From Idiomarina sp. (GTDB lineage Bacteria; Pseudomonadota; Gammaproteobacteria; Enterobacterales; Alteromonadaceae), in the NCBI GenBank assembly GCA_022565355.1, contig JAIUMU010000006.1:1-64000 (forward strand): a DNA stretch of 64,000 nucleotides, given 5' to 3'. The notes under the pieces were generated by a model that saw only the letters and a program-made list of their open reading frames with translations, did no database searches and was not told where the DNA came from. Each line of letters starts with the position of its first letter. Within the stretch, counting starts at the first letter, position 1. This document shows positions 30,973-54,398 of the stretch, in pieces. The translations under genes and the position numbers were made by a program.

Positions 30973-31135
30973 TTTTGTAGAAAACCCACCCTCCCATCGT
31001 TCGTTTTAATAACTCTGGAAAGTTTTTTGAGAGGCTTGGTGATATTTTAAACTAAGCCTTTCTATTTGCATTCAATCTTCGTAAGCTTGCCTAAGCATCA
31101 GATTTATAGGCGTAAAAGCTGCGAGGGCAACGACG

Positions 31136-32485
31136 GTGGCAAAACTTGTTATATCGAACGACGTCTCGGTGGGTAGTTTCATTAGAAATGGTGAAAATGA
31201 TGTGCAATTTACTGCTGGCCGAAATATAGGGCAGCTCCCCACTCTATATGATGGAGAGGGCAGGTTTGTTGGGCCTGTTAATGCGTGGTTTGTATATCTA
31301 GTAGCTACAAAACGACTGGAAAACTTAAGCTCATACGCTCGGGCATTGAGACGATATTGGAGTTTTTTAGACAAAGAGCAACTCACTTGGAATGAGTTCC
31401 CACCTCCTAAAGCATTAAAGCCTACCTATCGGTTCCGGAATGATGACCTACTGAGAAACGCTAGGGAGGGTAAGCTAGCCTATTCAACAGCAAACACATA
31501 TATGACTCATGTCGTGCAATTTTATCTTTGGGCAGCCTACGAAGGCTACTATCGAATAACGGAGAAACATAAGCCGTTTGAGATCGAGTTTGTAACGATT
31601 AAAAATAACAGTATGTTTGCACATATGAGGCCAAAGTTTACAGTACAAACTTCTGATCTGCGAATCAGGGTTCCGCGAGATTCTACTACTCAAAAGGTCC
31701 GTGGACTTACTCCACTTGGGCAAGACGCTTTATATAACTTATCCTTTCAGCTACGTGCGGCGTCAATAGAAATACGTTTAATCTGTCTGTTGGCTATTCA
31801 ATGTGGACTTCGGCTCGAAGAAGCATCCGGGCTAACTTTAGATGCTTTAAATAACGCTATTTTGCGGGATGGCACGAGAGCTCAATATGAAATTACTATC
31901 GGGCCATCTAACGGCGTTCCCACTAAATATAATAAAACGCGAACGATTGAGGTGACTGGAGAGTTGCTAAATGAATTATTGAATTATGCTATTAGTGAAC
32001 GGCGTATAAATCGTTTAGATAAACTTAAAGAGAATTTAGCAAATTGTGCATCGACGGTTCCCATTAGCAGCTTGCATCTTTCGTTGTCTTTGAACCTGGC
32101 CAAAGTAAATTCGGAGGCAATGACAGCAGCAAGCCTCTACGAACCTATATTCATAAGCCAACGCGGTTTTCCTTATGCACCTAAGACAGTAAGTGCTAGA
32201 TTTGGAGAAATCCGTCGCTCTATAATTGAGTCTGGAACGGAGTTTGCGTACAAATTTCACGACCTCCGGTGTACCTACGCAACCTATCGACTGAACAGCT
32301 TGTTATCCGCAGGACTGGCACCAGCAGATGCATTGGCTTTACTGATGCAATGGATGGGACACAACCAAGAATCTACAACCTGGAAATATTTAAGCTACCT
32401 AAAGCGCAAAGAGGCGTTGAAGGAAAAAATATCGATGCTTGATCAAATTATGCATCACGCATTAATGGAGTCAGCATATGAATAG
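31136..32485 (+). CDS. Tyrosine recombinase/integrase, first gene of the recombinase module (GmtY-like or TnpA-like; GTG start)
   Basis: CGLRLEEASGL (catalytic R), HDLRCTYAT (HxxR), MGHNQESTTWKYLSY (H and nucleophile Y). Confidence 0.85.
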   Translation: MAKLVISNDVSVGSFIRNGENDVQFTAGRNIGQLPTLYDGEGRFVGPVNAWFVYLVATKRLENLSSYARALRRYWSFLDKEQLTWNEFPPPKALKPTYRFRNDDLLRNAREGKLAYSTANTYMTHVVQFYLWAAYEGYYRITEKHKPFEIEFVTIKNNSMFAHMRPKFTVQTSDLRIRVPRDSTTQKVRGLTPLGQDALYNLSFQLRAASIEIRLICLLAIQCGLRLEEASGLTLDALNNAILRDGTRAQYEITIGPSNGVPTKYNKTRTIEVTGELLNELLNYAISERRINRLDKLKENLANCASTVPISSLHLSLSLNLAKVNSEAMTAASLYEPIFISQRGFPYAPKTVSARFGEIRRSIIESGTEFAYKFHDLRCTYATYRLNSLLSAGLAPADALALLMQWMGHNQESTTWKYLSYLKRKEALKEKISMLDQIMHHALMESAYE

Positions 32486-34223
32486 AGATACTGAGTTGAC
32501 GAATCAGTGGGTCGAATACTTATGTATTCCCGCCTTGAATGGCGCTAATGATTTCACTCTTCTGGACTTCAACCGATTTCGCTATAAAGGAGTTCCCTCA
32601 ACGACTGAACTCAAAGGAGAGGAATTAAATTTCGAGTTAGTTAATCGTGATGATCTAGTAAAAAAAATATTTACTGCGATCAACGACCGAGAGGGGGTGG
32701 CAGTCGCTACGAAAGCGTCTATTTTTGATACAGCAAGAAAACACTTTGTTTTCTGTGACAGTCATAATCCGCCACTTCAACCACTATCAGATTCTGCTTT
32801 TTCAATACAATGTGAGCATATCTCCAAACGTCAAAGGCTAGGAGAGATAAAAGATAGTACAGAAGGGAGAATGATATCATCCTTAAATACTCTATTCAGA
32901 TGGCTAGATATCCCAACAAAACACCTTCTACCAAAAGGTGCATTTTCGAAACATACGCAGCAGGAGAATACTCGCGGTTACAGTGATAATGATTTAAAAA
33001 AAATACTTCCTTTATTACGAGGTATTTTCAAGCAGCTCAGCACACAATTTATCGAAAATCCAGAATCCCATGTGAAAGCAAAGGTTCAACAAGTGACAGG
33101 TAACTTTACTTGGAAAGGAAAGGAATATCCGGTCACTAATCTTACTAGTAAGCTTATTGCGGCAGCCACATATCTACTTAGTTACTACACTTGGTGTAAT
33201 AGCAGCGTTATTTTCAGTTTGACAAGACCATCTATGAGCAGTCATTCGCCCTCAGAAAATTGGCATCAAATGCCTGCGTTTAAACGGAGAGCATTCAAGA
33301 CGATAACCGTAGAGATCGGTGAAAATAATCGGCTGGAAGTGCCCAAGTATGCAATGAGTTTTTTCGATCAATTATTAATAGTATCTACGATTTTAGACCC
33401 AAGGCCAGATGGATTGCTATTACCCTCATTTTCATTCCGAACAAAGAAAATACAAATGATGGGATCCTCTCGACTCAACACCTTTAAAGTCGGCTGGTTA
33501 GCTAAGCACTTTCCAATGCTTGATGATAGGGGGGAGCGACTCTGGCCCGTTATTAGGCGTTTCCGAGCAACTGGTGGTGAACTAGCTCTAGCCCAAAAGG
33601 GTATTATTGAAGCAGCTATTCTTTTAGACAATACTCCAAATGTGGTGGCAACTGCATACTCCGGCGGGAACATTCATGAGAATATGCGAATGAACCAAGA
33701 TGTCAGTCTTACGCTAGAACAAGTGGCGCGAGATAGATCGGAGGTTGAAAAAGCAAAACAAAAAGTTCGAGACTCGCAAAAAATAGAAGTGTTAGCCTAC
33801 GAAGAATATATAAATCGGCTATCGCCAATTAATCGGAGTGCCCACGGAAGTTACTGCAATGATACCTCCGGTATAAAAGGAAAAAAATTCACAGCTAAGG
33901 CAATTAGTCATCAGATAATAGAGAAAGGGGAGAGTCTAGTATGTGCTGACCTTTTGAGCTGCTGGAGTTGCGAGCACCAAGTTTTAGTTGAGTCAGTCCC
34001 AGATATATGGTGCATTCTAAGTTTTCGGGATTGTCTAGAGGACTCTATCTACCTTCATGTAGATAGTAACCATTTTGCAAAAAATTTTGGCAAAGCCATT
34101 CATATAATCGATCAACGGCTGAAAATCATGAATAGCAAAATAGTGAAGAAAGCTCGTCAAAAGTTAGCCGATGACGGGCGTCATCCTCTTTGGGTAGACG
34201 CAGCTAGTGTTAATTTATATTAA
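32478..34223 (+). CDS. Divergent integrase-like protein, second gene of the recombinase module
   Basis: Overlaps the upstream recombinase by 8 bp; C-terminal RRFRATGGELALAQKGIIEAAILLDNTPNVVATAYS resembles a degenerate HxxR...H...Y segment. Confidence 0.6.
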   Translation: MNRDTELTNQWVEYLCIPALNGANDFTLLDFNRFRYKGVPSTTELKGEELNFELVNRDDLVKKIFTAINDREGVAVATKASIFDTARKHFVFCDSHNPPLQPLSDSAFSIQCEHISKRQRLGEIKDSTEGRMISSLNTLFRWLDIPTKHLLPKGAFSKHTQQENTRGYSDNDLKKILPLLRGIFKQLSTQFIENPESHVKAKVQQVTGNFTWKGKEYPVTNLTSKLIAAATYLLSYYTWCNSSVIFSLTRPSMSSHSPSENWHQMPAFKRRAFKTITVEIGENNRLEVPKYAMSFFDQLLIVSTILDPRPDGLLLPSFSFRTKKIQMMGSSRLNTFKVGWLAKHFPMLDDRGERLWPVIRRFRATGGELALAQKGIIEAAILLDNTPNVVATAYSGGNIHENMRMNQDVSLTLEQVARDRSEVEKAKQKVRDSQKIEVLAYEEYINRLSPINRSAHGSYCNDTSGIKGKKFTAKAISHQIIEKGESLVCADLLSCWSCEHQVLVESVPDIWCILSFRDCLEDSIYLHVDSNHFAKNFGKAIHIIDQRLKIMNSKIVKKARQKLADDGRHPLWVDAASVNLY

Positions 34224-34232
34224 GGGTAGGAA

Positions 34233-36359
34233 ATGCAAGCTCTCTGTCTTAGATTACCAAATGACTACCCGTCAGTTGGCGTAACCGAAGAAACGGATGT
34301 TTTATCTTTGATCGCCACTGGTCGCTTGTCTGAGTTAAGTGAAGTCCCTATATGCATCGACCAGTTTGGTGTAACTAGGAGCATTTTTGGTGAGAATCGT
34401 TGGGATTGCAGCGCCTATGCCTTCGATAAAGGCTCAGACAAAAATCAACGTGAATTTGATTTCACGTATCTTAGCGAATCCCCTGAGTTGAAGCTTCAAG
34501 CTAAACTTATAGCTTATGGCTGGTTATTCAAGCAAGGCCACTATAGCGGAGCAAAAGCAAAGCTTTCAACTTTGACTTCGCGATTTAATATAGGGTTAAA
34601 AAGGCCACTATTAACTTGCTTAAAGGGTGGTTATTCTGATTTATCGAAGATATCCGATAATGATATATGGGTTGAGCTCGAGAGTCTGATTAAAGAGCAG
34701 GAGTTGACGAAACGAACCGTTGAGCTTGTGTTCTCGGCATTGTTAGCTGTAGAGCGTTTGAATTTTTGGTTGCCGTTCAATTTTGCTTTACCAAATATAA
34801 ACTTTAAACAACGAGCAGCGAAGCTTGCTTCACAGAGCAAATTGGAATCACGTCAAACATTGGCGATTCCTCAAAGTTTGACCAACATATTATATGGTGA
34901 AGCGATTCGTTTCGTTGAGGTTGCTTGGCCATACAGAAAGAAACTAACTCAAATGCAAAGAGACTTGCAGACAAATTATGATATCGGTCGTGCTACAGTC
35001 GATTATAAAATTGCAATCGGGAAATGGAAGTGGCTGACCAATCCCGATGGAACAATAAATACTAGAAGATATGAGCAGGAAATCAATAAGGCGACACCCC
35101 AATCTCAAGAGGCGATAATTTCACAGGCCCTCTGCGGAACCAACCTCTTACCCGAAAGTGAGGTGAGCGGTTCTTGGTTCACTAGGTGGCGTTCTTTAAC
35201 GTTGTCAGCGTGTTTTGTATGTTGTGGTGCGTTTACTGGAATGAGAGTAAGTGAGCTTTTTGAATTGCGAGCGGACAGTTTCTATACTCATTCAATTAAT
35301 GGTCAAGTTTTTTATTCGTTACGAGGAGCGACACACAAGCTTGCAGCAGGGAAGAAGAACGAAGAATGGTTAGCAAGTCCGGTGGTAAAAAAAGCGATAG
35401 CTCTCGCTTTAGCGCTCACCGCCGCCTACCGAGAAGAGCTTTTCAAAATCGCGGCTCATACAGATGATAAATGGCAAGCATATACTCTCCGTCAACATGC
35501 TAGTTGCCTATGGCTGACTAAATATCGTCGTCAAAGAATGCCTGCTGTAATTTCGCGTTCCAAATGGAACGATCGCCTAAAGAATTACTCGAAAGAAGTT
35601 GGAGCAATTGTCGATAAAGCATCATTAGAAGAATGCCAATTACTGAACCCTAGGGATGGTGGCGCTATAACGGCAAAAGTTAAACTCAATGCGGAGTGGC
35701 CACTGGCGACACATCAGTTCCGTAGGACTTTCGCCTGCTTTTCAATACGAAACAGTCTCGCTCATTCAGTCGCTTTGAAGCAACAATTCAAGCACGTCAA
35801 CTTAAGGATGAGCGAATGGTATGGTAATGGTGCAATTGAATCTCGACTCAAAGATGTGCAGGTAGACACTCAGCTTGTTAACCTTTTAAATCAAATCGAG
35901 ATAGAGAATGCAACGGACAAATACCACAATTGGTTTAATGGTGATAAGCCATTGAGCGGAACCTTTGGTAAAGCAATTGTCTCGATGCGTGACGATAAGC
36001 CTGTAATTTACAGTAGTTGGGACAATTTATACCGTCTTGTCAAAGAGAAACGTCTGACTCTTCATGGAACCCTCCATAGCTACTGCAAAAATAACTATGA
36101 CTGTGATATGGATGGGGTGGTCAATCCAGCATTCTGCGTTGACTGCAAGACTGGTGGCAGTGTGATTGATTCTGAGAAAGCGATTTGGTGGCAAGAAAGA
36201 CACTCGGCACTAACCTCCTACCTTCGTAAATCTGTTGAAGTAAGTGCTGGTGAGTACGCTCATTGCATTACACAAATCAGGGCAGCCGAGCGAGTATTGT
36301 TAGATCATGATTTAGCTCACGAAACTTACGTTCACCCAATACAAGTAATCGAGATATGA
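34233..36359 (+). CDS. Large tyrosine recombinase/integrase, third gene of the recombinase module
   Basis: FTGMRVSELFELRADSF (R), ATHQFRRTFACF (HxxR), FKHVNLRMSEWYGNG (H and Y); Cys-rich CKNNYDCDMDGVVNPAFCVDCKTGG tail. Confidence 0.82.
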   Translation: MQALCLRLPNDYPSVGVTEETDVLSLIATGRLSELSEVPICIDQFGVTRSIFGENRWDCSAYAFDKGSDKNQREFDFTYLSESPELKLQAKLIAYGWLFKQGHYSGAKAKLSTLTSRFNIGLKRPLLTCLKGGYSDLSKISDNDIWVELESLIKEQELTKRTVELVFSALLAVERLNFWLPFNFALPNINFKQRAAKLASQSKLESRQTLAIPQSLTNILYGEAIRFVEVAWPYRKKLTQMQRDLQTNYDIGRATVDYKIAIGKWKWLTNPDGTINTRRYEQEINKATPQSQEAIISQALCGTNLLPESEVSGSWFTRWRSLTLSACFVCCGAFTGMRVSELFELRADSFYTHSINGQVFYSLRGATHKLAAGKKNEEWLASPVVKKAIALALALTAAYREELFKIAAHTDDKWQAYTLRQHASCLWLTKYRRQRMPAVISRSKWNDRLKNYSKEVGAIVDKASLEECQLLNPRDGGAITAKVKLNAEWPLATHQFRRTFACFSIRNSLAHSVALKQQFKHVNLRMSEWYGNGAIESRLKDVQVDTQLVNLLNQIEIENATDKYHNWFNGDKPLSGTFGKAIVSMRDDKPVIYSSWDNLYRLVKEKRLTLHGTLHSYCKNNYDCDMDGVVNPAFCVDCKTGGSVIDSEKAIWWQERHSALTSYLRKSVEVSAGEYAHCITQIRAAERVLLDHDLAHETYVHPIQVIEI

Positions 36360-36814
36360 ATAAAGAGAACACACAAGTTCGCTTGGTCATGGCCTTGCAG
36401 CGTATTTTATCCGGTAATCCAAAGCGTATCCCTAGTCATCGGAAACTTAGTATGCGCGCTGTTGAGGAGGAAGCTAATTTGGGTAATGGAAGTGGTTACC
36501 ACTACCCTGAGGTCGTCGAGAGTGTGAAAGCTGCAAAAGTCGCTTCGCAAACAAAAAGAACAGGGATAAAGCCAGCTTCTGAACTTAAACGATTACGAGA
36601 AGAAAAGAAGAAAGAAATAGAAATAAAACAAAAATACAAAAGGCAAGTTGTATTGTTGAAAGCTGAGCAGGCGCAGATGGCAGCTGAACACCATCAGTTA
36701 TCATACGCGTTGCACCAAGCGTTAAAGTCTTTAGAAGAAATGAAAAAAGAAATCGCTGAAGTTAAGCAGAATCTAGTTGAAGCTCGGAGGGAAAGTGTTC
36801 GAACGATAAAATGA
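36356..36814 (+). CDS. Small coiled-coil protein, fourth gene of the recombinase module (GmtX-like or TnpC-like)
   Basis: 4-bp ATGA overlap with the upstream recombinase; N-terminal HTH-like (KLSMRAVEEEANLGNGSGYHYPEV) and a long C-terminal coiled coil. Confidence 0.65.
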   Translation: MNKENTQVRLVMALQRILSGNPKRIPSHRKLSMRAVEEEANLGNGSGYHYPEVVESVKAAKVASQTKRTGIKPASELKRLREEKKKEIEIKQKYKRQVVLLKAEQAQMAAEHHQLSYALHQALKSLEEMKKEIAEVKQNLVEARRESVRTIK

Positions 36815-37300
36815 GACTGTAAAAAATATCTGTGTAAATGGCTAATTGCACTGTTAAATCCGATCCTGGTACATAATCTCGAACTGCGCCATGGCCGGTT
36901 TCCAGTTGCGGATAGGCATCGTCCACTTTTTCGAGGCCTGATGCAAGGCTAAGTACAACACTTTCATGACCGCTTCATCATTCGGGAACGATCGGCGGGT
37001 TTTGGTGATTTGACGCAATGACGCGTTAAGCGACTCAATCGCATTGGTAGTATAGATAGCTTTGCGTATCTCGACTGGGTAGTCAAAGAACACTCTTAAA
37101 CGCTCCTAGTTAGTCCGCCATGAGCGGCTGATGGTCGGATGCTCAGCGTCCCACTTTATAGCGAAGTCTTCCAATGCTTGCTCCGCTTCAGCCCGAGTGG
37201 CCGCACCGTAAATGAGTTTTAAGTCCGCAGCGATAGTCTTACGTTGTTTCCAGCTCACGTAGCGCAACGAGTGACGAATTTAATGCACGATACACATTCT
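36813..37300 (-). pseudogene. IS256-family transposase remnant with in-frame stops, 5'-truncated
   Basis: Reverse translation: (CIVH*)IRHSLRYVSWKQRKTIAADLKLIYGAATRAEAEQALEDFAIKWDAEHPTISRSWRTN*ERLRVFFDYPVEIRKAIYTTNAIESLNASLRQITKTRRSFPNDEAVMKVLYLALHQASKKW...; stops at 37280-37282 and 37106-37108; IS-end-like gagactgtaaaaaat at 36813. Confidence 0.85.
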
Positions 37301-37436
37301 TACCTTTCTCCTTCAAATATGAGCCAAGGTAACCTGAGATCAAGCTTATTATTACTATAAGAATGACTTGCCATAGCTCCATTCCAATTGAGCTATCAAT
37401 CATCTCTTGAATCTTTTGAAAATCATCAGGTTTCAT
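37239..37436 (-). pseudogene. Last cassette gene, small membrane protein whose 3' end is fused to the IS256 remnant
   Basis: MKPDDFQKIQEMIDSSIGMELWQVILIVIISLISGYLGSYLKEKGKNVY then sequence derived from the transposase region in another frame. Confidence 0.65.
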
Positions 37437-37450
37437 ACTGTTTCCTTGAA

Positions 37451-37510
37451 GACTAACGCCGCCATCAGCCGCGCGAGGAACGAGCGTCAGATTGAATGGC
37501 ATTGTTAGCC
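37451..37510 (-). other. Integron attC recombination site (cassette C4)
   Basis: Minus strand: GGCTAACAATGCCATTCAATC...GCGGCTGATGGCGGCGTTAGTC; R'' GGCTAAC and core GTTAGTC; overlaps the 3' end of the C4 ORF. Confidence 0.82.
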
Positions 37511-38088
37511 TCTCTCGCTAGCTCACTTTTACCACCAATAATGAAGAGCCCTAAAAGCTCATGTTTACCGATACCCTTATTGCTCTCACCAAGATCTGCT
37601 CGCATTTCACGAAATAGAGAATCTATTAGGAGCAAGCCTGACTTTGGCTCTGCTGGATTGTTATCTCCCGAGTAAGCAGACCTCCATACTCCATAGGCTT
37701 TAACAACTCCAGGACCGCCATATACCGTCACTCTCGATGTAAAGCGGAAGAAAAAGTCCTGTATATCTTTAGGGAGACCGTCATCTCCGTCTTTTCCGGA
37801 CTTTGTGTTCCTCATTGTCTCCACAACAACATCCATAAACTCATTGTATATTTCTGCCTTCTTCTCTCGGTGCGCCTCAAATGCAACCCTTTCCCTAGCT
37901 TTGCGCGCATTATAGGAAGCTATTGAGACCGAAGATATTACAGTGGCTGCACTGGCTATTATTGCTGCGCCAACTGTGGAATCGACATCCTGGAAGGCGG
38001 CAGCCAGCCAAACCACAACCAAGTAGCCTGCATACCCAAATAGACCAAGAGTGAGGAACCCAAAAATAACTGATAACACTTTCTTCAA
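37465..38088 (-). CDS. Membrane protein of unknown function (integron cassette C4)
   Basis: MKKVLSVIFGFLTLGLFGYAGYLVVVWLAAAF...; two TM segments plus cytosolic domain; bounded by attC sites; GGAG RBS upstream. Confidence 0.75.
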   Translation of the reverse strand: MKKVLSVIFGFLTLGLFGYAGYLVVVWLAAAFQDVDSTVGAAIIASAATVISSVSIASYNARKARERVAFEAHREKKAEIYNEFMDVVVETMRNTKSGKDGDDGLPKDIQDFFFRFTSRVTVYGGPGVVKAYGVWRSAYSGDNNPAEPKSGLLLIDSLFREMRADLGESNKGIGKHELLGLFIIGGKSELAREANNAIQSDARSSRG

Positions 38089-38102
38089 TGTAACTCCTCC
38101 AT

Positions 38103-38204
38103 GGCTAGCGCCCCAAGCAGGGGCAATAGCACGTAGGTTAAAGTACGGAACGAAGTCGCGGGAGCTTACGTGTTATTGTCCCGCTGACTTGGTTTGTTAG
38201 GCGC
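38103..38204 (-). other. Integron attC site (cassette C3), diverged core
   Basis: Minus strand: GCGCCTAACAAACCAAGTCAGCGGGAC...GCCCCTGCTTGGGGCGCTAGCC; complementary L arms CCAAGTCAG/CTGCTTGG; core GCTAGCC differs by one base from the expected GTTAGCC. Confidence 0.75.
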
Positions 38205-38365
38205 TACTCTTTGCCAGGAGGTATTGGGTTATTGGCAGGACTGTCGCCACCACTTAAAGGAGTGTATCCGCCGGATGCTGGAGGCCTATTCGGTGTTTCT
38301 GTTGGTTGATAACCTTTTTTGACAGGCTGATAACCGTTGTTTTGAGTTCTCTTGTTGTCTGACAT
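38204..38365 (-). CDS. 53-aa proline/glycine-rich small protein encoded with the DUF6338 gene (below the ORF-track length cutoff)
   Basis: Manual translation: MSDNKRTQNNGYQPVKKGYQPTETPNRPPASGGYTPLSGGDSPANNPIPPGKE*; starts 2 bp after the upstream stop; repeated GYQP motif. Confidence 0.75.
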   Translation of the reverse strand: MSDNKRTQNNGYQPVKKGYQPTETPNRPPASGGYTPLSGGDSPANNPIPPGKE

Positions 38366-38367
38366 AG

Positions 38368-38952
38368 TTAACTTAACTCCCTTAATTCTATGTGTGAAAT
38401 TTCACTGTTTAAAATGATAACGCCTTTAGTTTGGTTCTTCTTTCTAAGAAATGCACCATCTTCATCCAGTAGCCAAGTTTCTTCTAAGTATATTTGCTCA
38501 GGTGATGGAGCACTTGATGTAAACGATTTATTTGAATATAGACCACCAATAATACTGCCATCCTTAAGAGTTACTTTAACCCAGTATGGTTCACGTTTTT
38601 CGAAAACCCAATCCCATGGCTTTGATGTCGGATGTGGAGCATTCTTCTGGAAAAAATTTCTTGTTCTTACGAATTTCCATATGATTACCCATATAACAGG
38701 GAATAAGAACAGCACACTGAAATAGAATAAAAACGTGTAACCGATAGAAGTTACACCACTTTTTATAAAAAAGTAGATCGGAACAGAAAGAATTGAGTAA
38801 TTTATGCAGCTATAAGCAATCGCGTCGATCAACATTGCTGATGCTGGGCGAACTGTCCCCGGAAAAATTAACTGATAAGCTTTTATACTGAGAAACCCAG
38901 GTATTACGAATGCAATGAACAGTATTAGTTTGTCAGCTTCCCAGATGCTCAA
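38368..38952 (-). CDS. DUF6338-like membrane protein (integron cassette C3), TTG start
   Basis: GGAGG RBS then TTG: (M)SIWEADKLILFIAFVIPGFLSIKAYQLIFPGTVRP...; ends two bp before the 53-aa ORF. Confidence 0.78.
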   Translation of the reverse strand: MSIWEADKLILFIAFVIPGFLSIKAYQLIFPGTVRPASAMLIDAIAYSCINYSILSVPIYFFIKSGVTSIGYTFLFYFSVLFLFPVIWVIIWKFVRTRNFFQKNAPHPTSKPWDWVFEKREPYWVKVTLKDGSIIGGLYSNKSFTSSAPSPEQIYLEETWLLDEDGAFLRKKNQTKGVIILNSEISHIELRELS

Positions 38953-38964
38953 AATATCCTCCTT

Positions 38965-39048
38965 GCGCCTAACGCCCGCTGTAACAGGCGCATTTGTAGT
39001 GAGCAGCGCGAACGGAAAATACGTGCTTGTTAACGGCATTGTTAGCGC
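38965..39048 (-). other. Integron attC site (cassette C2)
   Basis: Minus strand: GCGCTAACAATGCCGTTAACAAGCACG...GCCTGTTACAGCGGGCGTTAGGCGC; canonical inverse core and GTTAGGC core. Confidence 0.88.
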
Positions 39049-40317
39049 CTAAACGGTCCATATCTTTCCTTCGAACAGAAACTTATTAATCTCAGGTGGG
39101 TTTGCCCTGACACTGGGGTGGTTGGCAAGTACCAATCTGATAGTACGAACTGCTGCATATGCATCCATGACCAATGACCGTTGTTCATGAAAGTATTTTT
39201 GATCGAATTCATCCTCTCGTACCGAGTGAGCCGGCTTCTGCCGGAGTTTGCGAACTTTTCTAAATGATGCCAGCATTTGTTCCAGCGGCTCTGGTTCTTG
39301 TGTCCGAAAATAGTAATTTACCCATTCGTCAAGTAGAACGATTGTACCTTTCCTTCTTACCTCCACCTTGCCGTCAGGTCTTTCATGATCTTCTTCTAGT
39401 TCCAACTCAGGAGTAAAGAATTTATTATTCAAGTTGTCCGACATTAATTGATCTAAAAGAAGAATAAAGGCATTAAACTCAGCTAGCGTCGGGCGCAGAA
39501 GGAAGCCAAAGTTTCTTGGATAATCGTGCTGGTAAGTGTTTCTAAAAAGTGGTGGCTTTCCCATTAACGCAGCCATCTCATTGATAACGAGCATTTCTTG
39601 ATTGAAAGCCTCGAAGATTGATATCCTTGTACCCCAATGCCCCATGCTATTCCTAAGATAATCCGGGTGGAGTTGGAAATCGCCTGACAACTCTTTAGAT
39701 TTCCATATTTTCTGATGTTCTGGGCTGAGATCAGAAAGGTAGCGTAGGAAAACAGCAACCGCTCTATTAAGATCTTTGTCATGAGCAAAGCCGAATGTTT
39801 GAAGTAGCACCTGGTCATGCTCAGCCATTAACTCTGATTCAAAGTATTCATCGGTTACTGAAATTTGGCCGTTGATGAAATCTGTTTGGTAGTAATATCT
39901 CGGGTCATTTCGATAATGCTCAAGAACAGACAATTCAAAAACACGGAAATCCAACTGCCCACCACCAAGAGCTAATTGCTCCGTATATGGTTCATCTCCG
40001 TAATCTTTCTCTTCTTTGATATTGGCGAGCGTCTCCTTTGTAGGGTACAAACAGAAGTGCTCACTAAATCCCAGAGTACCGAGAAACTCTATTTGTTGTT
40101 CTGCTGTTGTTTCTGAAAATGCTTTTATATGAGGGTTTGGATGGATATTCCCGAATACGACATCAATTTCTCGATCTGAGATGAGTTCACGAATAAGTTC
40201 CTTTGCCACGTCATTATCAATATTGAAGGCCTCTTTCAACGCATAAACGGGATATCCATTGAAATCACCTGATTCCAGATACTGTTTTGTTACTGCCTTT
40301 ATAACAGCTTGCCTCAC
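39049..40317 (-). CDS. Hypothetical protein with possible HEPN-like motif (integron cassette C2)
   Basis: 422 aa; C-terminal KVRKLRQKPAHSVREDEFD contains an R-x4-H motif; bounded by attC sites. Confidence 0.7.
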   Translation of the reverse strand: MRQAVIKAVTKQYLESGDFNGYPVYALKEAFNIDNDVAKELIRELISDREIDVVFGNIHPNPHIKAFSETTAEQQIEFLGTLGFSEHFCLYPTKETLANIKEEKDYGDEPYTEQLALGGGQLDFRVFELSVLEHYRNDPRYYYQTDFINGQISVTDEYFESELMAEHDQVLLQTFGFAHDKDLNRAVAVFLRYLSDLSPEHQKIWKSKELSGDFQLHPDYLRNSMGHWGTRISIFEAFNQEMLVINEMAALMGKPPLFRNTYQHDYPRNFGFLLRPTLAEFNAFILLLDQLMSDNLNNKFFTPELELEEDHERPDGKVEVRRKGTIVLLDEWVNYYFRTQEPEPLEQMLASFRKVRKLRQKPAHSVREDEFDQKYFHEQRSLVMDAYAAVRTIRLVLANHPSVRANPPEINKFLFEGKIWTV

Positions 40318-40333
40318 GTATTCAACCTCTTAT

Positions 40334-40409
40334 GCGCTAACGCCAAGCACAGCGGCGCGAGGGACGAGCGTCCGGCGCCGTGGGCGCGAACTGCTGCGCA
40401 TGGTTATGC
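40334..40409 (-). other. Integron attC site (cassette C1)
   Basis: Minus strand: GCATAACCATGCGCAGCAG...CGCCGCTGTGCTTGGCGTTAGCGC; core GTTAGCGC. Confidence 0.83.
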
Positions 40410-41249
40410 ATTGTCGAACCTCTTGATGCAGTCCTGAACGTATCGAAATATTGTATATACGGCATTTAGTGCTACTGTTGCTTCCGGTTCATCCAAGAGC
40501 TCATTTGCATGTGCTAAGCTTGCCCGATTACGAATAGTGGACAATGCATCGATTGAAGCCGCGAAGGATTGAAGTATTTTTGTGACATCTGACGCTCTCG
40601 GCCCATCAGGGGTGAGAGCGGAATGAGATTGGCGCAGCACCTTAAATACTCTCGATAAAGAAGCATCATTCTCTACTGGTATTGAAGCGTTGTCACAAAG
40701 TTCGAGCAGGTAGCCGTGTAGTGCTGTATGCGCTCGATCTATTGCGCTTGAAGCATCAGAATGACCAACTAATGCTTTTGCATCAGCCAGCGCTCTAGAA
40801 ACGGTAGACTCTGCTGTTCCAATCACAGGGTCGGGTGGTGAGATGTGCTCATCAGTAGCCACCAGCTGATTTTCGATAACTCTATACGGTACCGAGTGTT
40901 TCTCAAGAATATTGTTGACATATTGGTGTCCGGGAACAGCTACTTCCCAATTTTCTAGCGCCTCACATGCATCACAGAAAGCGGCGATGAATCCGGGTGC
41001 GTCGGATGCAGCTCTGTCTGCATGATATTCCAGATCTGACTCGGCCCACGATAAATTGGAGCTTTTGGCGTACTGGTCACCGCTCGCAATAGCGAAGAAC
41101 TCCTTGAATTTTTCGATAATCTGTTGGCGCCCAATAGTGCTAGATGAGGCCTTTCGAGCAAGACTAATAAAGTCTTGAACTACTCCCCCAGTTAGCGGCG
41201 TCGTCCCCCCCATGGGGAACCGTAACTCTACTGGCATTTCAATTGGCAC
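40404..41249 (-). CDS. Abortive-infection (Abi-C/HEPN-like) family protein (integron cassette C1)
   Basis: C-terminal AIDRAHTALHGYLLELCDNASIPVENDASLSRVFKVLRQ...STIRNRASLAHANELLDEPEATVALNAVYTIFRYV, matching the Abi C-terminal domain pattern with RNRxxxxH. Confidence 0.75.
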   Translation of the reverse strand: MPIEMPVELRFPMGGTTPLTGGVVQDFISLARKASSSTIGRQQIIEKFKEFFAIASGDQYAKSSNLSWAESDLEYHADRAASDAPGFIAAFCDACEALENWEVAVPGHQYVNNILEKHSVPYRVIENQLVATDEHISPPDPVIGTAESTVSRALADAKALVGHSDASSAIDRAHTALHGYLLELCDNASIPVENDASLSRVFKVLRQSHSALTPDGPRASDVTKILQSFAASIDALSTIRNRASLAHANELLDEPEATVALNAVYTIFRYVQDCIKRFDNA

Positions 41250-41271
41250 GGTAGCTCATCCTTTGGGTAAT

Positions 41272-41357
41272 GCATAACATTGTATTACTAAGCACGCCTC
41301 ATATCCTCGATACACGTGTGTGCGCGATATCAAACAAAGCGTGCATGCTCGTTAATG
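41272..41357 (-). other. Candidate attC/attI-like site at the 5' end of the cassette array
   Basis: Minus strand: CATTAACGAGCATGCACGC...GCGTGCTTAGTAATACAATGTTATGC; GCACGC/GCGTGC arms; its TTATGC end is complementary to the C1 R'' box. Confidence 0.5.
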
Positions 41358-41763
41358 TTTTTAGGAACCGTTCGAGGCTGCATCCTATCGTCTTCTTTGG
41401 TTTGTTAACGTGCACAAAAGTTTATGAAGCACAGTCAAATTCGAGCACAAAATTGATATGGATGGGCGAAAAATGAGAGAGGCTCTTCCTTGAGGAAACA
41501 TCGTGAGCGGCTTCATATGCGATTGCTGTGCAATTGCTTCGCTTGCCATTACTCCTTTGGCGCGCGCTTTACTTTAATTAAGTTACTTTATCTTTTTAAT
41601 TTGAGCAAGCGTCTGTTCGTCAACAATCTTGAGCGTGTTCTCTGAAGCTATTAAACGGTCGTTTTCTAAACACCTAGAATACATACCAATTATTCCCAAT
41701 ATCCGTATTGTTTTATGTCCAAAAATCACGTACAACAAACTATGACTAGAAAAGGTGCGTTTT

Positions 41764-42327
41764 ATGCTCATAGGTTATGCGCGTGTTAGTACTCAAGAAC
41801 AAAGTGTCGATATGCAAGTCGATGCGCTTCGAGCTGCTGGGTGCGAACAGGTATTTCAAGAGAAGATTACGGGGAAGTTTCGTGAACGACCTGAATTGTC
41901 GCAGTGTCTGCGTATGCTCCGTAAAGGTGATGTGCTAATCGTCTGGAAATTGGACCGGCTAGCTCGTTCACTGAAGAACCTTGTCGAGATTGTTCAGGAC
42001 CTTCATGATAGAGATATCGGATTTAAATCACTTACTGAATCAATAGATACAACTAGCTCGGGTGGCCGTCTTGTATTTCATATATTTGGCGCGCTTGCAG
42101 AGTTCGAGCATGATCTTATTCGAGAGCGCACCAAGGCCGGATTACAAGCAGCAAGAGCAAGAGGCAGAAAAGGTGGACGCAAACCATCAATGACCGATGC
42201 AGATATCCGAAAAGCTGCGGCTATGCTGTCCGACCCGCAAATAACAAAAACAGAGGTGGCAGCGCACTTTGGTGTTACTCGCACAACTCTGAATGCCTCT
42301 CTACAGAGAATTGGATCATCTTCCTAA
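41764..42327 (+). CDS. Serine recombinase (resolvase/invertase family)
   Basis: MLIGYARVSTQEQSVDMQVDALRAAGC...WKLDRLARSLKNLVE...GRLVFHIFGALAEFEHDLIRERTKAGLQAARARGRKGGRK, C-terminal HTH. Confidence 0.92.
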   Translation: MLIGYARVSTQEQSVDMQVDALRAAGCEQVFQEKITGKFRERPELSQCLRMLRKGDVLIVWKLDRLARSLKNLVEIVQDLHDRDIGFKSLTESIDTTSSGGRLVFHIFGALAEFEHDLIRERTKAGLQAARARGRKGGRKPSMTDADIRKAAAMLSDPQITKTEVAAHFGVTRTTLNASLQRIGSSS

Positions 42328-42369
42328 CTGACAGGAAGCGTAGAAGAAATACATAATTGGAGCCCATGG

Positions 42370-44355
42370 ATGACAAACGATAAAACGAACCACTCCCAAA
42401 CCGCAGCCTTCATCTGGTCGGTAGCTGACCTCTTACGCGGTGATTTCAAACAAAGTCAGTATGGCCGAGTGATTCTACCTTTCACTCTTTTAAGGCGCTT
42501 AGAATGTGTTCTAGAGCCCAATAAAGCTCAGGTACTAGCCGCAGCCAAAGAGCATCAAACAAAGCCTGATGCGGTTCGTGAAAAATTGTTACTTCGTGCT
42601 GCTGACCTCCAGTTCTTCAATGCGTCACCTTTAAGCTTGGCAGCATTGTCTGACACCCAAACTGCTGATGATTTAATGAGTTATGTGCAGTCATTTAGTC
42701 AGGATGCGCGAGAAATATTTGAGCACTTTCATTTTGAAGATTTCGTGCAACAGCTAAGCGCAAATAACTTGCTCTATCAGCTGGTACAGCGCTTCGCGAG
42801 CATCGATTTAAGCCCGAGCTCCATCAGTAACTTTGGTATGGGTCTTATCTTTGAAGAGCTCATTCGAAAGTTCGCTGAAAGCTCCAATGAAACGGCCGGT
42901 GAACACTTTACGCCGCGTGATATTGTGCACTTGACCACATCTCTGGTGTTGACTGGGCAAGAGAAAAGGCTAACGCCTAGCAGTATTGTCACTATCTATG
43001 ACCCCACGGCCGGAACTGGTGGATTCTTATCCGAAGGTGATGAGTACATTCAGCAAATCAGCGAAGGCGTGACGGTCTCATTGCATGGGCAAGAACTTAA
43101 CCCGGAATCTTTTGCCATTTGTAAGGCCGATATGCTGATTAAAGGGCAGGACGTCAGTAACGTCAAGCTAGGTAACACCTTGTCTGATGACCAATTGGCG
43201 TCGAACAAGTTCGATATTATGCTCTCCAATCCTCCTTTTGGTGTTGAATGGAAAAAGGTTCAGAAGCAAGTATCCGACGAACACAAGCACCGAGGATTTG
43301 ACGGTCGCTTTGGCCCAGGCCTACCGCGTGTATCCGATGGCTCGCTCTTATTCCTCCTGCACTTGGTTAGCAAAATGCGTGATGCCCGTGAAGGTGGGTC
43401 GCGTATTGGCATTATTTTGAATGGAAGCCCATTGTTTACTGGCAGTGCGGGTAGTGGTGAATCAGAAATTCGACGGTATCTCCTGCAAAACGACTTAGTT
43501 GAAGCCATTGTCGCGCTCCCCACCGATATGTTCTACAACACAGGTATCTCAACCTACATATGGGTGCTATCAAATAACAAGCCTGCGGCGCGCAAAGGCA
43601 AAGTGCAACTGATTGATGCTAGTGACCGAGCGACTAAGATGCGTAAATCACTGGGAAGTAAACGCCAGTTTGTTAGCGATATTGACCAAGATGACATTGT
43701 TCGCATGTATGGCGATTTCCAAGAATCAAAGAAAAGCAAAGTATTTCCGAACGAGGCATTTGGCTATCGTCGCATCACGGTTGAACGACCGCTTAGACTG
43801 AACTTTCAAGCAAGTAAAGAGCGAATTGCACGCATGCTGGACGAAAAAGCCATTCAGAAGCTGAGCCTGGGTGAGCAAGATAAGCTTATCGCGGCGTGTA
43901 ATGCGCTTGATGCAGATACGCTTTACAGCAACCGTAAGCAATTCCAAAAAGCTTTGAAAGCATCGTTTAGCGAACATCGGGTCACTCTAAGTGCCCCACA
44001 GCTTAAGGCGGTCATGAACGCACTCAGCGAGCGTGATTCAGAAGCTGATATCTGTGTAGACAGCAAAGGCAATCCAGAGCCAGATACAGGATTGCGTGAC
44101 TACGAAAACGTGCCGCTAATTGAATCCATTTATGAGTATTTTGAGCGCGAAGTGAAACCGCATGTACCCGATGCTTGGGTTGACGAATCCAAGCGCGATG
44201 AAAAGGATGGTGAGGTTGGTATTGTTGGCTTTGAAATTCCATTCAATCGACATTTCTATGAATTCATGCCACCAAGGCCACTGGAAGAGATTGACGCTGA
44301 TTTGCAACAATGCACCGACCGCATCAAACAGATGATTGAGGGGTTGTCGGCATGA
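42370..44355 (+). CDS. hsdM: Type I restriction-modification system methyltransferase subunit
   Basis: FTPRDIVHLTTSLVL, YDPTAGTGGFL, FDIMLSNPPFGVEWKK (NPPF). Confidence 0.95.
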   Translation: MTNDKTNHSQTAAFIWSVADLLRGDFKQSQYGRVILPFTLLRRLECVLEPNKAQVLAAAKEHQTKPDAVREKLLLRAADLQFFNASPLSLAALSDTQTADDLMSYVQSFSQDAREIFEHFHFEDFVQQLSANNLLYQLVQRFASIDLSPSSISNFGMGLIFEELIRKFAESSNETAGEHFTPRDIVHLTTSLVLTGQEKRLTPSSIVTIYDPTAGTGGFLSEGDEYIQQISEGVTVSLHGQELNPESFAICKADMLIKGQDVSNVKLGNTLSDDQLASNKFDIMLSNPPFGVEWKKVQKQVSDEHKHRGFDGRFGPGLPRVSDGSLLFLLHLVSKMRDAREGGSRIGIILNGSPLFTGSAGSGESEIRRYLLQNDLVEAIVALPTDMFYNTGISTYIWVLSNNKPAARKGKVQLIDASDRATKMRKSLGSKRQFVSDIDQDDIVRMYGDFQESKKSKVFPNEAFGYRRITVERPLRLNFQASKERIARMLDEKAIQKLSLGEQDKLIAACNALDADTLYSNRKQFQKALKASFSEHRVTLSAPQLKAVMNALSERDSEADICVDSKGNPEPDTGLRDYENVPLIESIYEYFEREVKPHVPDAWVDESKRDEKDGEVGIVGFEIPFNRHFYEFMPPRPLEEIDADLQQCTDRIKQMIEGLSA

Positions 44356-45653
44356 GTATTGCAGCCTACCCAAATCACATTGAAACTGACTCAGCTAGGT
44401 TTAAATCGATACCTAGTCATTGGAAGTTGGTGCCATGCCGAGCCATTGTCGAGGAGATAGCAGAAAGGAACTCTGATGGTAAAAATCAAAATTACCTGTC
44501 TTTAATGGCGAACGTCGGTGTAATAAGGTATGAGGACAAAGGCGACGTCGGTAACAAAAAACCTGATGATCTTGCCAAGTGTAAAGTCGTTCGGGTTGGA
44601 AACCTCGTCATAAATAGCATGAATTATGGTATCGGCTCCTACGGTCTATCAGCTTTTAACGGAGTCTGTAGTCCTGTTTACATTGTATTAAATGCGATCG
44701 AGAGTGTGTTAAACGAGAGATTTGCTTTACGGATTTTTGAGGAAAAGCAATTCCAGTCTTTTGCTCAATCCTTCGGCAATGGCATTTTAGCCCATCGAGC
44801 CGCTATAGGCTGGGATGACTTGAAAAAAATAGAAGTGCCGTTACCTCCACTTCCAGAACAAACCCAAATCGCCCGCTTCCTCGACCACGAAACCGCGAAA
44901 ATCGATGCTCTGATTGCTGAACAGAAGCGATTGATTGAGCTATTAAAGGAAATGCGCCAGGCGGTGATTTCGCATGCGGTGACCAAAGGTTTAGACCCCA
45001 ACGTACCAATGAAGGACTCAGGGGTAGAATGGCTTGGGGATGTGCCTGAACATTGGGATATTGGCCGTTTGAAGCACCTTTTGAGGATTCGCGGAGGGCA
45101 AGACTATAAAGCAGTTGAAAGCGATAATCCTGCCGATTACCCTGTGATTGGCTCAGGAGGACAGTTCACCTATGCCAAAAGCTTTCTCTATGAAGGCGAA
45201 TCAGTATTATTGGGGAGAAAGGGCACTATAGATAAACCTTTATACATCAAAGGTAAGTTTTGGACAGTGGACACAATGTTTTTCACTGAAATACTACCTA
45301 GGGCTTATGGCAAGTTCGCTTACTATTTAGCAACTACAATACCTTTCGGGCTTTACTCCACCAATACGGCTCTTCCAAGTATGAGTCAATTTGATTTAGC
45401 TAATCATAAGCTGCCAATTCCGCCCGTTTCCGAACAAGCACAAATTGCCTTATATCTCGATGAACGAATCAGAAAAATTGATGCGCTAACCAATGAAGCA
45501 ACTAAATCAATTAGATACATGAACGAACGCCGTTCCGCCCTAATCTCGGCAGCAGTGACCGGTAAAATCGACGTGCGCAACTGGCGACCACCTGCGGATG
45601 AAAGTGCCTTCCCAGCAGATGTGCGTCAGGTTGGATTGGAGGAGACGGCATGA
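44352..45653 (+). CDS. hsdS: Type I restriction-modification specificity subunit
   Basis: Two TRD modules; PLPPLPEQTQIARFLDHETAKIDALIAEQKRLIELLKE; overlaps hsdM by 4 bp. Confidence 0.95.
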   Translation: MSIAAYPNHIETDSARFKSIPSHWKLVPCRAIVEEIAERNSDGKNQNYLSLMANVGVIRYEDKGDVGNKKPDDLAKCKVVRVGNLVINSMNYGIGSYGLSAFNGVCSPVYIVLNAIESVLNERFALRIFEEKQFQSFAQSFGNGILAHRAAIGWDDLKKIEVPLPPLPEQTQIARFLDHETAKIDALIAEQKRLIELLKEMRQAVISHAVTKGLDPNVPMKDSGVEWLGDVPEHWDIGRLKHLLRIRGGQDYKAVESDNPADYPVIGSGGQFTYAKSFLYEGESVLLGRKGTIDKPLYIKGKFWTVDTMFFTEILPRAYGKFAYYLATTIPFGLYSTNTALPSMSQFDLANHKLPIPPVSEQAQIALYLDERIRKIDALTNEATKSIRYMNERRSALISAAVTGKIDVRNWRPPADESAFPADVRQVGLEETA

Positions 45654-45706
45654 TTACTTTCACATGGGTGATGAATCAACAGAATCAGGAATTGGAGCTA
45701 TAGGTC

Positions 45707-48700
45707 ATGGCAGATAGTCGCGAACGTGTATTTCAAAACGATATTATTGAAGCGTTAAGCCAACAAGGCTGGCTGGTTGGTAAAGCGTCTGAGTATGACA
45801 AGCCTCATGCACTATACCAAGAAGACCTCATTGGTTATTTTAAAGAAGCATGGCCTGAGCGCTGGGAGAAATTCTGCAAGAGCAACCCGCAAAACCCTGA
45901 AAAGGTGTTCGTTCAAAAAACCGTTCGCGAGCTCGAAAAGAAAGGCACGCTTGATGTGCTTCGTCATGGCTTCAAAGTGCCCGGTGTAAAAGTAGACCTG
46001 TGTAGCTTTAAGCCTGACCACGACATGAATCCCGATACAGAGTTAAGGTATAACGCGAATCGCCTTCGTGTTGTCGAAGAGGTCTCATACTCGCCCCACG
46101 CCCGCACTAGTGATTACAACCCGAGGCTTGATTTGGTGCTGTTTGTCAACGGCATTCCAACAGCAACCCTGGAGCTCAAAAGCGAATTCAAACAAACCGT
46201 TGAGCATGCAAAGCGACAGTACAAGAAAGACCGCCCCGTTAAAGACCCAGTGACACGCAAATCTGAGCCGCTACTTTCCTTTAAGCGAGGTGCTTTAGTG
46301 CATTTTGCGGTGAGCCAAGACGAAGTGGCAATGACCACAAAGCTGAACGGTAAGGATACATTCTTTCTTCCCTTCAACCGCGGCACAACGGACGGTGGTG
46401 CTGGAAACCCGCGTGCTGAAAACGAGAGCAGCTACGCGACTGCTTATCTGTGGGAGCAGCTGTTCCAAAAAGATGCTTGGTTAAAAGTGATTGGCCGCTT
46501 CCTGCATCTTGAGAAGAAAACAGAAGAAGATTTCTACGGCAATCGCAAAACTAAAGAAACACTTATCTTTCCTCGTTATCACCAATGGGATGTAGTAAAC
46601 CAAATCATCGAAAAGACGCGCTCAGATGGGGCAGGAAAGCGTTATCTCATTCAACATAGTGCAGGATCAGGGAAGTCCAACTCAATCGCTTGGGCTGCGC
46701 ATCAGCTCGCTCAACTTTATGATGGTGATGGTAAGAAACTATTCAGCTCGGTTATCGTGGTCACGGACAGAACGGTCCTTGATAGCCAACTGCAAGATAC
46801 AATTTATCAGTTTGAGCACGCTCAAGGCGTAGTGCGACCGATTAATCGTGATATCGGCAATCAAAGCAAGTCGGAGCAGCTTGCAGAAGCCCTTGCCGAG
46901 CAAACCCGCATTATCATTGTTACCATTCAAACCTTCCCGGCGCTTTTTGATGCTCTAGAGAAATACCCAAAGCTCGCATCAGGTCGTTACGCGGTAATAG
47001 CAGATGAAGCCCACTCATCGCAAACAGGCTCTTCAGCGACCAAACTCAAAGCGATTCTCGGTGGCGACTTCCCAGACGGCGAAGAGGTAAGCGCTGAAGA
47101 ATTATTAAGTGCAGCGGTATCAGCCCGCAAGCCAAGTGAGCAAATTAGTTACTACGCATTTACCGCAACGCCTAAAGCAAAAACACTGGAGCTCTTTGGT
47201 CGGGAGCCAGACCCATCGCTACCGCGAAGTGAATCGAATAAACCAGAGCCGTTTCACCTGTACTCAATGCGCCAAGCGATTGAAGAAGGCTTTATCATCG
47301 ATGTATTGCGTCGCTATACCACATATGCAGTAGCGTGGAAGTTAGCGCATCCGAACGCAGATGACGATGAGGTTGATTCGAAAAAAGCACGAACGACATT
47401 GGCGAAGTGGGTGCGCTTGCACCCTTACAACATCAGCCAAAAGGTCGAGGTGATTGTCGAGCATTTCCGAGAGAATGTGCGTCATCTTCTTGTTGGGCAG
47501 GCAAAGGCAATGGTGGTGACGAGTAGCCGCCAAGAGGCCGTTCGCTATCAACTAGCGATGCAGCAATATATTAAAGATAAGGGCTACCAAGACGTCCATC
47601 CATTGGTGGCGTTTTCAGGCAGCTTGCCACCAGATGATGTTATCCCTGAAGAGGTCACAGAAACGAGTAAGCTTCTAAACCCAGGGCTTAATGGTCGAGA
47701 CCATGCCAAAGCGTTTGATACCGACGAATACAACGTGATGCTGGTGGCCAATAAGTTTCAAACAGGTTTTGACCAGCCAAAACTATGTGCCATGTACGTC
47801 GATAAGAAACTACAAGGCGTGGAATGTGTGCAAACGCTCTCACGGCTTAATCGACTGTTCCCCGGCAAAGAAACGTTCATACTCGATTTTGTGAATGATA
47901 CTCAGGATATCCTCGATTCATTCTTGCCCTATTACAACAAAGCCGAGCTCACCGGCGTGTCTGATGCACAGGTCGTCTATGACTTGCAGGAGTCCCTTGA
48001 TAAAGAGCAGATATACCACTGGAACGAAGTTGAAAAGTTCGCACTGGCATTCTTTGATCCCAAAGCCGACGCCTCAAAGCTAACTTATTATTGTCAGCCC
48101 GCGCGTGAGCGTTTTAATAAACGTTACAAGTTGCTGCGTGATGAGCGAAATGATGCACGGTCCGCCAGAAAGCAAGCTGAAGCCGATGGCAACAGTGTTG
48201 GCGTTAAGCATGCTGATGCGACGCTCAAAGAAGTGGGCGAGTCGCTTGATACACTCGACTTGTTTAAGAAGAACTTGGGCAGCTTTGTGCGCGCCTATGA
48301 ATTCCTTTCTCAAATTGTATTTTTCGAGGATGCCGAGCTTGAGCAGCTGTGCGTGTTTGCTAAAAACCTGCTACCACTCCTCAGACAAGAAGCGCTGGAA
48401 GACGATGACATTGATATCTCAGAATTGGGACTATCGCACTATCGAATTACTAAGCGTAAAGAGCATGAGCTTCGCTTAGCGGAAGATGGTGAGGAATATG
48501 GTCTTGACCCAATCACAGGGCTGGGTACCGGTAAACCTATAGATCCCGAGAAAAAGCGACTCTCAGAAATCATCGAAACGCTTAACGATATTTTTGGAGC
48601 CGAAGTGAGCGACGAAGATCAGCTACACTTCGCTAACGGTATTGCCGAGCGAGTAAGACGCGATGAAGAGGTTATGGCGCAAGTGAATAGCCACTCAGCT

Positions 48701-48880
48701 AACCAAGTAATGCACGGCTTATTTCCCAAGCGTCTAACTGATTTGGTACTAGACTCAATGACAGAGCATGAGAAGCTCTCAATGGAGATATTGGAAAACG
48801 AAGGTAATCAAAAGGCGTTTGCACTACTGATTTTACGACTGCTGTCTGGACAGAACACTCCCAGCGAGTTTATGCGATAA
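45707..48880 (+). CDS. hsdR: Type I restriction enzyme R subunit
   Basis: HSAGSGKSNSIAWAAHQLAQL, ADEAHSSQTGSSATKLK, YYAFTATPKAKTLELFG; PD-(D/E)xK-type region LVLFVNGIPTATLELKS. Confidence 0.96.
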   Translation: MADSRERVFQNDIIEALSQQGWLVGKASEYDKPHALYQEDLIGYFKEAWPERWEKFCKSNPQNPEKVFVQKTVRELEKKGTLDVLRHGFKVPGVKVDLCSFKPDHDMNPDTELRYNANRLRVVEEVSYSPHARTSDYNPRLDLVLFVNGIPTATLELKSEFKQTVEHAKRQYKKDRPVKDPVTRKSEPLLSFKRGALVHFAVSQDEVAMTTKLNGKDTFFLPFNRGTTDGGAGNPRAENESSYATAYLWEQLFQKDAWLKVIGRFLHLEKKTEEDFYGNRKTKETLIFPRYHQWDVVNQIIEKTRSDGAGKRYLIQHSAGSGKSNSIAWAAHQLAQLYDGDGKKLFSSVIVVTDRTVLDSQLQDTIYQFEHAQGVVRPINRDIGNQSKSEQLAEALAEQTRIIIVTIQTFPALFDALEKYPKLASGRYAVIADEAHSSQTGSSATKLKAILGGDFPDGEEVSAEELLSAAVSARKPSEQISYYAFTATPKAKTLELFGREPDPSLPRSESNKPEPFHLYSMRQAIEEGFIIDVLRRYTTYAVAWKLAHPNADDDEVDSKKARTTLAKWVRLHPYNISQKVEVIVEHFRENVRHLLVGQAKAMVVTSSRQEAVRYQLAMQQYIKDKGYQDVHPLVAFSGSLPPDDVIPEEVTETSKLLNPGLNGRDHAKAFDTDEYNVMLVANKFQTGFDQPKLCAMYVDKKLQGVECVQTLSRLNRLFPGKETFILDFVNDTQDILDSFLPYYNKAELTGVSDAQVVYDLQESLDKEQIYHWNEVEKFALAFFDPKADASKLTYYCQPARERFNKRYKLLRDERNDARSARKQAEADGNSVGVKHADATLKEVGESLDTLDLFKKNLGSFVRAYEFLSQIVFFEDAELEQLCVFAKNLLPLLRQEALEDDDIDISELGLSHYRITKRKEHELRLAEDGEEYGLDPITGLGTGKPIDPEKKRLSEIIETLNDIFGAEVSDEDQLHFANGIAERVRRDEEVMAQVNSHSANQVMHGLFPKRLTDLVLDSMTEHEKLSMEILENEGNQKAFALLILRLLSGQNTPSEFMR

Positions 48881-48957
48881 CCTGACATTTTTAGTACGAA
48901 CTGACTGGGTACTTGTAATAATAATGCACATGTAATTTATTTTACGGATATCAAAAT

Positions 48958-49161
48958 ATGGCCCTAGCAGAGGCACAAAAACAGCTAGATGCAGAACTCA
49001 ATAGTTTCTTTATGAAAGATAAGGAAATGATGGGCGAGTGGCTTACATCACACTTGCCCGCGCTCAATGGATTACAGCCAGTGGTTCTCATGGACACAGA
49101 AGACGGTGTTAAAACGCTTCTAAAAATACTTGATGATATGAAGTATGGTGATTTGATTTAA
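48958..49161 (+). CDS. Short protein with ParS/MbcA-type (DUF2384) antitoxin toxin-binding domain
   Basis: EWLTSHLPALNGLQPVVLMDTEDGVKTLLKILDDMKYGDLI resembles the WL..PxPALxGxxPxxLLxTExGxxxVxxxLxRIEYG motif. Confidence 0.65.
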   Translation: MALAEAQKQLDAELNSFFMKDKEMMGEWLTSHLPALNGLQPVVLMDTEDGVKTLLKILDDMKYGDLI

Positions 49162-49389
49162 GTGTAATGTGCGAAAAAATAGTTAATCAAATTAGTCAGT
49201 AATAAACCCAACGGCTCCTTGAGACTATCGTTTTCAACTGTAAAATCCATCTAGGCATACTAATGCCTTACCAATCGAGTAATAACAGTGTTACCAAGAT
49301 AAAACTCATCGATGGAATGACTCTAGTTCTATGAGTGAACATCTATACGCGCTATTTATTGAGCGAATCTTAACTTCGCCGATTACTTG

Positions 49390-54378: not shown

Positions 54379-54398
54379 ATTCGATCATGGAGTAGTAA

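Follow-up and report, generated by a model that had tools for sequence, protein, structure and literature searches.

An integrase-less integron cassette array in Idiomarina sp. headed by a predicted promoter, a conserved leader and an attI-like site

Here, we describe an array of integron gene cassettes on contig JAIUMU010000006.1 of Idiomarina sp. (assembly GCA_022565355.1), of which positions 1 to 64,000, the window, were analysed. The array is read on the minus strand and, together with an attI-like site, a conserved leader and a promoter at its head, occupies positions 37283–41608. Its first cassette, C1 (40341–41277), encodes a 281-residue protein (open reading frame (ORF) 40404–41249) with a Pfam Abi_C match (4.6e-13) and a weak AbiJ match (2.2e-5). 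C2 (38973–40340) encodes a 422-residue protein without a Pfam family (ORF 39049–40317), a homologue of which, 42% identical and annotated as an AAA family ATPase, lies on an Agrobacterium plasmid. C3 (38109–38972) holds two ORFs, a DUF6338 gene (7.8e-35; listed as 38368–39039, with a probable start near 38952) and a 53-codon ORF at 38204–38365, and C4 (37457–38108) encodes a 207-residue protein without a family (ORF 37465–38088). After the attC site of C4 a fifth cassette begins with G/TTAGTC (37283–37456); it is cut at approximately 37283 by a fragment of a Mutator/IS256-type transposase gene. A role in defence is plausible for C1 only, a putative abortive-infection gene judging by its family match. 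The 53-residue product in C3 is proline- and glycine-rich and its ORF lies directly behind the DUF6338 gene, possibly as a conserved pair.

The genes are separated by four attC sites, all on the minus strand: 40335–40409 for C1 (15.1 bits, E 0.22), 38967–39047 for C2 (21.5 bits, E 0.004), 38103–38204 for C3 (53.5 bits, E 1.6e-11) and 37451–37510 for C4 (41.8 bits, E 2e-8). These scores come from a covariance model, R1, built from 29 sites in intI-linked arrays of relatives without any window sequence and run with cmsearch, without filters, over all 64 kb; R1 took the place of an earlier heuristic finder, because the latter demanded pairing between R' and R'' boxes, which array sites need not have. 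An initial reading of the letters without database searches (the sequence-only reading) had proposed attC-like sites at these four positions, and they are indeed the four best R1 matches in the window, the fifth (19465–19541) dropping to 9.2 bits. An attC from an intI-linked array in another genus (L029:2164–2263) closely matches the one between C3 and C4. Also borne out, by direct reading and by script, is the proposal that each cassette start is complementary to its own R'' box: the match is exact over 10 bp in C1 (start GTTATGCATT, end AATGCATAAC), 8 bp in C2 and 9 bp in C3, while C4 agrees at six of seven positions (GCTAGCC versus GTTAGCC), with one substitution. Since this matched assignment ranks second among 120 end-to-start assignments, own-end pairing is not a generic trait of these ends. 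As expected of an integron array, the attC sites have conserved R'' and R' boxes, are foldable and separate genes in one orientation.

Could the sites nevertheless be chance repeats, or members of a repeat family unrelated to integrons? The E-value of attC1 taken alone would suit such a view, but an independent model placed the four sites first in 64 kb and on one strand, the cassette ends pair exactly with their own partners, an attI-like site stands at the head, and 245 attC matches, including arrays at intI, occur in the 19 genomes of our genus set (Aliidiomarina). Together these observations refute the idea, to which we attach practically no probability; attC1 itself stands by position and cassette logic.

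At its upper end, C1 adjoins the attI-like site (41275–41356, minus strand), with the crossover at G(41278)/TT(41277). The sequence-only reading had placed the array at 37239–41357; its four cassettes hold, but the upper boundary at 41357 belongs to the attI-like site and not to a cassette. A further attC at the C1 boundary was considered and rejected in favour of attI after comparison with intI-linked sites. The sequence upstream of C1, CATTAACGAGCATGCACGC...GGCGTGCTTAGTAATACAATG/TTATGC, matches the attI region of the intI-bearing integrons of the genus, and the attI cores that flank intI in relatives, GCATGCTTAGTATTCAAATG/TT, are homologous to it. A hidden Markov model built from the attI sites of integrase-less arrays of this kind, the window site included, gives 70.9 bits here and also matches the intI-flanking cores in several genomes, with weak scores at exact positions; the same cores were recovered by pattern search. 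Because the profile matches attI cores beside intI, the array appears to have retained an attI despite the missing integrase gene, and this homology points to an attI next to the first cassette, as in a complete integron.

The other mark of a complete integron, intI in cis, is absent: no match to TIGR02249 was found on the whole window contig. The only recognisable intI of the genome is a stop-containing remnant, which lies on another contig (C4) and follows gcvP at a distance of about 2 kb. With at least two attC sites and no integron integrase in the neighbourhood, the array is a cluster of attC sites lacking an integron-integrase (CALIN) by the operational definition (PMC9024848), as the sequence-only reading had suggested, and it is more than that, as it carries an attI, a promoter and a leader. 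Seven of nine intI loci in the genus have an outward-facing attI core on either side of the gene, each with its own promoter (L168, G014:C4:736000-754000, at 7019–8531; L049, 5877–7355; L166, 5455–6990; L167, 1323–2833; L170, 453–1964; L172, 8035–9363; and L173, on C4 of the window's own genome, 5687–6799), and in six of the seven, attC arrays diverge on both sides. We found no description of such bidirectional integrons in the open-access literature.

Upstream of the array lies a predicted promoter of sigma-70 type with the −35 box TTGCTC (41603–41608) and the −10 box TAACTT (41580–41585), 17 bp apart on the minus strand. The form TTGNNN-17-TANNNT occurs at the same place upstream of the leader in all 38 testable loci, against 1 of 304 control segments; spacers of 16–18 were allowed and exactly 17 nt was found in every locus. 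A generic sigma-70 scan made no call at this promoter. At intI loci, 15 attI crossovers have the same form 149–174 nt ahead of them, so that it is probably the Pc promoter of the genus. At the integrase-less arrays it precedes the attI crossover by 179–185 or 259–313 nt; the window, with 302 nt from the −10 box to the crossover, belongs with the latter, strong group, which has an added leader of about 110–130 nt relative to the promoters at intI loci. Over 26 sites, each represented by one locus, mean information content is 0.007 bits per position upstream of the −35 box and goes up at the box itself, the left edge of conservation. Because conservation stops so sharply there, the unit appears to begin at its own promoter. 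A co-directional gene often ends within about 100–200 bp upstream.

Between promoter and attI lies the conserved leader of about 107 nt (41459–41565, minus strand), probably a structured 5' RNA. It was found in a DNA search of the genus with window positions 36800–41800 as query, which returned, apart from attC and insertion sequence matches, a stretch that precedes attI in genomes lacking intI. The leader model R2, built from the aligned loci with the window copy among them, scores the window at 95.9 bits (E about 1e-24). In an alignment of 41 copies, double changes fill 23 cells at the predicted pairs, against a shuffled value of 7.2, and the covariation score is 0.124 against 0.090 (0 of 500 shuffles in both cases); with the first 15 sequences covariation was not significant, and it exceeded shuffles only with 41. 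Because the alignment was fitted to R2 and kinship among the sequences inflates these numbers, the fold is likely rather than proven. Several other identities were considered for the leader. Rfam 15 gave no match at gathering in the window leader, and none with E up to 1 at the leader positions of six other loci, so that a known riboswitch was rejected. A conserved protein gene is unlikely, as the reading frame, judged by eye, ranges across loci from about 5 codons to over 40; a start-like ATG or TTG follows a GGA, and a short leader peptide is possible. A rho-independent terminator was rejected for want of a terminator call and of a conserved T run, and membership of intI integrons was rejected because the best R2 score at intI loci is 10.2 bits.

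The leader might instead act as DNA, as a binding region for IntI or an accessory protein or as the end of a mobile unit, which would be compatible with the platform reading set out below. The distance from leader to attI-like crossover is fixed within groups (135–184 nt in the strong group, about 66–70 nt in the weaker one), the left border is sharp, and dispersal to 26 sites needs some mechanism. Set against this are the position of the leader exactly downstream of a conserved promoter and the surplus of double changes in its pairs, with the caveat of a model-fitted alignment. We consider a DNA role rather unlikely.

How widespread is this arrangement? The unit of promoter, leader and attI heads integrase-less arrays in 17 of the 19 genus genomes, at 26 distinct sites, with one to six leader copies per genome; ten of the leader-bearing genomes have no intI above the XerC/D background. 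In a wider set of 148 genomes of relatives, 130 have no leader match, among them the two genus genomes without a leader, and outside the genus it was found only in one close neighbour (G111). In a GTDB-wide pattern scan all records recovered were from Aliidiomarina, with the exception of one metagenome-assembled genome of Idiomarina sp., and a scan of IMG/VR gave no match. Within 3 kb downstream, 32 of the 40 leader loci have an attC on the same strand and none has one on the opposite strand; from the density of attC in the genus, about 0.7% of positions would be expected to have such an attC by chance. This association, unlike the conservation of the leader, is independent of how R2 was seeded. 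Six genomes have a leader platform at one site, downstream of gcvP; its first cassette is different in each, and over 3.5 kb the arrays show no similarity that a translated comparison could detect, while related cassettes turn up in platforms that stand at different sites. As first cassettes differ between species at orthologous sites, platforms have exchanged cassettes.

Integrons of the genus seem to favour the region downstream of gcvP (G000:C4:137192-142681 and the gcvP loci of the other genomes): in the window's genome it holds the intI remnant, and in many others it is occupied by leader platforms or attC arrays. The window's genome has a further integrase-less array downstream of a dihydrolipoamide dehydrogenase-like gene (G000:C2:420355-426315; L090 5356–12358, attI at L090:14177), with an attI and a TTG-17-TA promoter and without the R2 leader.

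Taken together, we consider it likely that 37283–41608 is an integrase-less, promoter-equipped integron platform that was loaded in trans. The promoter (41580–41608), of constitutive type, would drive a transcript that starts with the structured leader and runs through attI into the four full cassettes and the truncated fifth. If it serves as Pc, the cassette nearest attI, the putative abortive-infection gene C1, would be best expressed. As no integrase gene belongs to the unit, cassettes would have been inserted at the window attI by an IntI acting in trans, when one was available; insertion in trans by an IntI now lost from the window's genome is the simplest account. The array is now probably frozen, because the only recognisable intI of the genome, on another contig, is a remnant. 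Since the same package recurs across the genus, one genome could have several docking sites without a local integrase.

Alternatively, each platform may have lost its own adjacent intI independently, and the array would be an ordinary CALIN that arose by decay. Degraded integrons are the usual explanation of CALINs (PMC9024848), the other integron of this genome has a broken intI, and another genome, G003, has two broken copies. Yet conservation ends exactly at the −35 box at 26 different sites, where independent deletions should give varied ends and some intI remnants, and the intI-linked attI sites of the genus are without the leader. Independent decay fits the sharp left edge less well than loading in trans, and we judge it unlikely.

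Several observations weigh against an integrase-less platform loaded in trans. Eight of the 40 leaders have no detectable attC downstream, so that these loci are empty platforms, decayed ones or something different. One genome of the genus set, G016, has 24 attC matches with neither leader nor intI detected. The exchange of cassettes could predate the loss of intI genes, and attC1 alone scores below significance. The conservation of the leader is not an independent discovery, because the sequences that seeded R2 had themselves been picked up by their similarity to the window.

Going further, and only tentatively, the integrons of the genus might be distributed: one IntI with two outward-facing attI sites would serve dispersed platforms of promoter, leader and attI, the leader RNA would regulate the docked cassette, and platforms would also travel in integrative islands. 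We hold this broader scheme to be possible rather than probable.

The window platform does lie in an island, as the sequence-only reading had proposed: the gap between sthA and yebC is 24.7 kb here versus 1.1–1.2 kb in two other genomes (G014 and G002). At the left end of the island, a plus-strand operon of four genes (31136–36814; 449, 581, 708 and 152 residues) encodes a recombinase system, with a Phage_integrase match in the first gene (4.1e-8) and one below cut-off in the third. Full-length relatives of the third protein, up to 61% identical, occur on plasmids; relatives are found on 353 plasmid records, mostly of Enterobacter, Pseudomonas, Escherichia and Vibrio. Next comes the transposase gene that cuts the array (36811–37283, minus strand), a 3' part with an internal stop that matches Transposase_mut in two pieces (4.8e-15 and 4.3e-5); copies of this fragment, 81–92% identical, occur in G016 and G018, several at contig ends. 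Upstream of the platform and divergent from it are a serine resolvase (41755–42327, plus strand; Resolvase 1e-46) and, as further cargo, the type I restriction-modification genes hsdM, hsdS and hsdR (42370–48880, plus strand). We know of no description of a type I restriction-modification system and an integron platform as cargo of an element of this kind. Elsewhere in the window, an ordinary thiamine pyrophosphate riboswitch lies at 14459–14572 (plus strand).

By size, order and Pfam pattern, the operon resembles the intA-tfp-intB-srap operon of SE, strand-biased circularizing integrative elements, with which it shares an integrase, a large protein without a Pfam family, a long integrase and a small protein, as well as an occurrence in Alteromonadales (PMC9345347, PMC10214605). 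SE have 19-bp imperfect inverted repeats, C and C', at their ends; between 30975–31140 and 41600–55300 we found no such terminal repeats above shuffled level. A gamma-mobile-trio (GMT) identity (GmtX, GmtY, GmtZ) found no support, as none of the four proteins has an NCBIfam match, although NCBIfam may not hold GMT models. Being island cargo, an array such as this could travel together with its promoter and docking site.

A candidate RNA element between Pc and the first cassette gene has a parallel in class 1 integrons, where an aminoglycoside riboswitch in the attI1 leader was proposed (PMC7588185) and disputed (PMC9410878). Unlike that leader, with which ours was compared through Rfam only, the element here is conserved from one species to another, whatever cassettes follow it. 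In the open-access literature, subscription papers not being covered, we found no description of integrase-less units of promoter, leader and attI, or of the leader.

In conclusion, the window array is one member of a class of platforms found across the genus, which have an attI, a promoter and a conserved leader and no integrase gene of their own. Neither attI nor a promoter enters the definition of CALINs, which are mostly seen as debris and which a functional IntI is said to be able to mobilize in trans (PMC12444791), whereas the arrays here carry a conserved attI, a Pc-like promoter and a leader as a recurrent unit. Recognizing attI sites is needed to tell such platforms from debris, and outside class 1 standard tools do not search for them; IntegronFinder detects none there (PMC9024848). 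The platform offers a direct test of loading in trans and a candidate for a new class of integron leader RNA. Like sedentary chromosomal integrons, for instance that downstream of ilvD in Xanthomonas (PMC12444791), these arrays are chromosomal and have a preferred site, which in many species of the genus lies downstream of gcvP; unlike them, they have no intI in cis, and several attI platforms stand in unrelated places of one genome. If promoter, leader and attI do recur as a unit without intI, the integrase and the capture of cassettes would be separable within a genome, much as cas genes and remote CRISPR arrays are.

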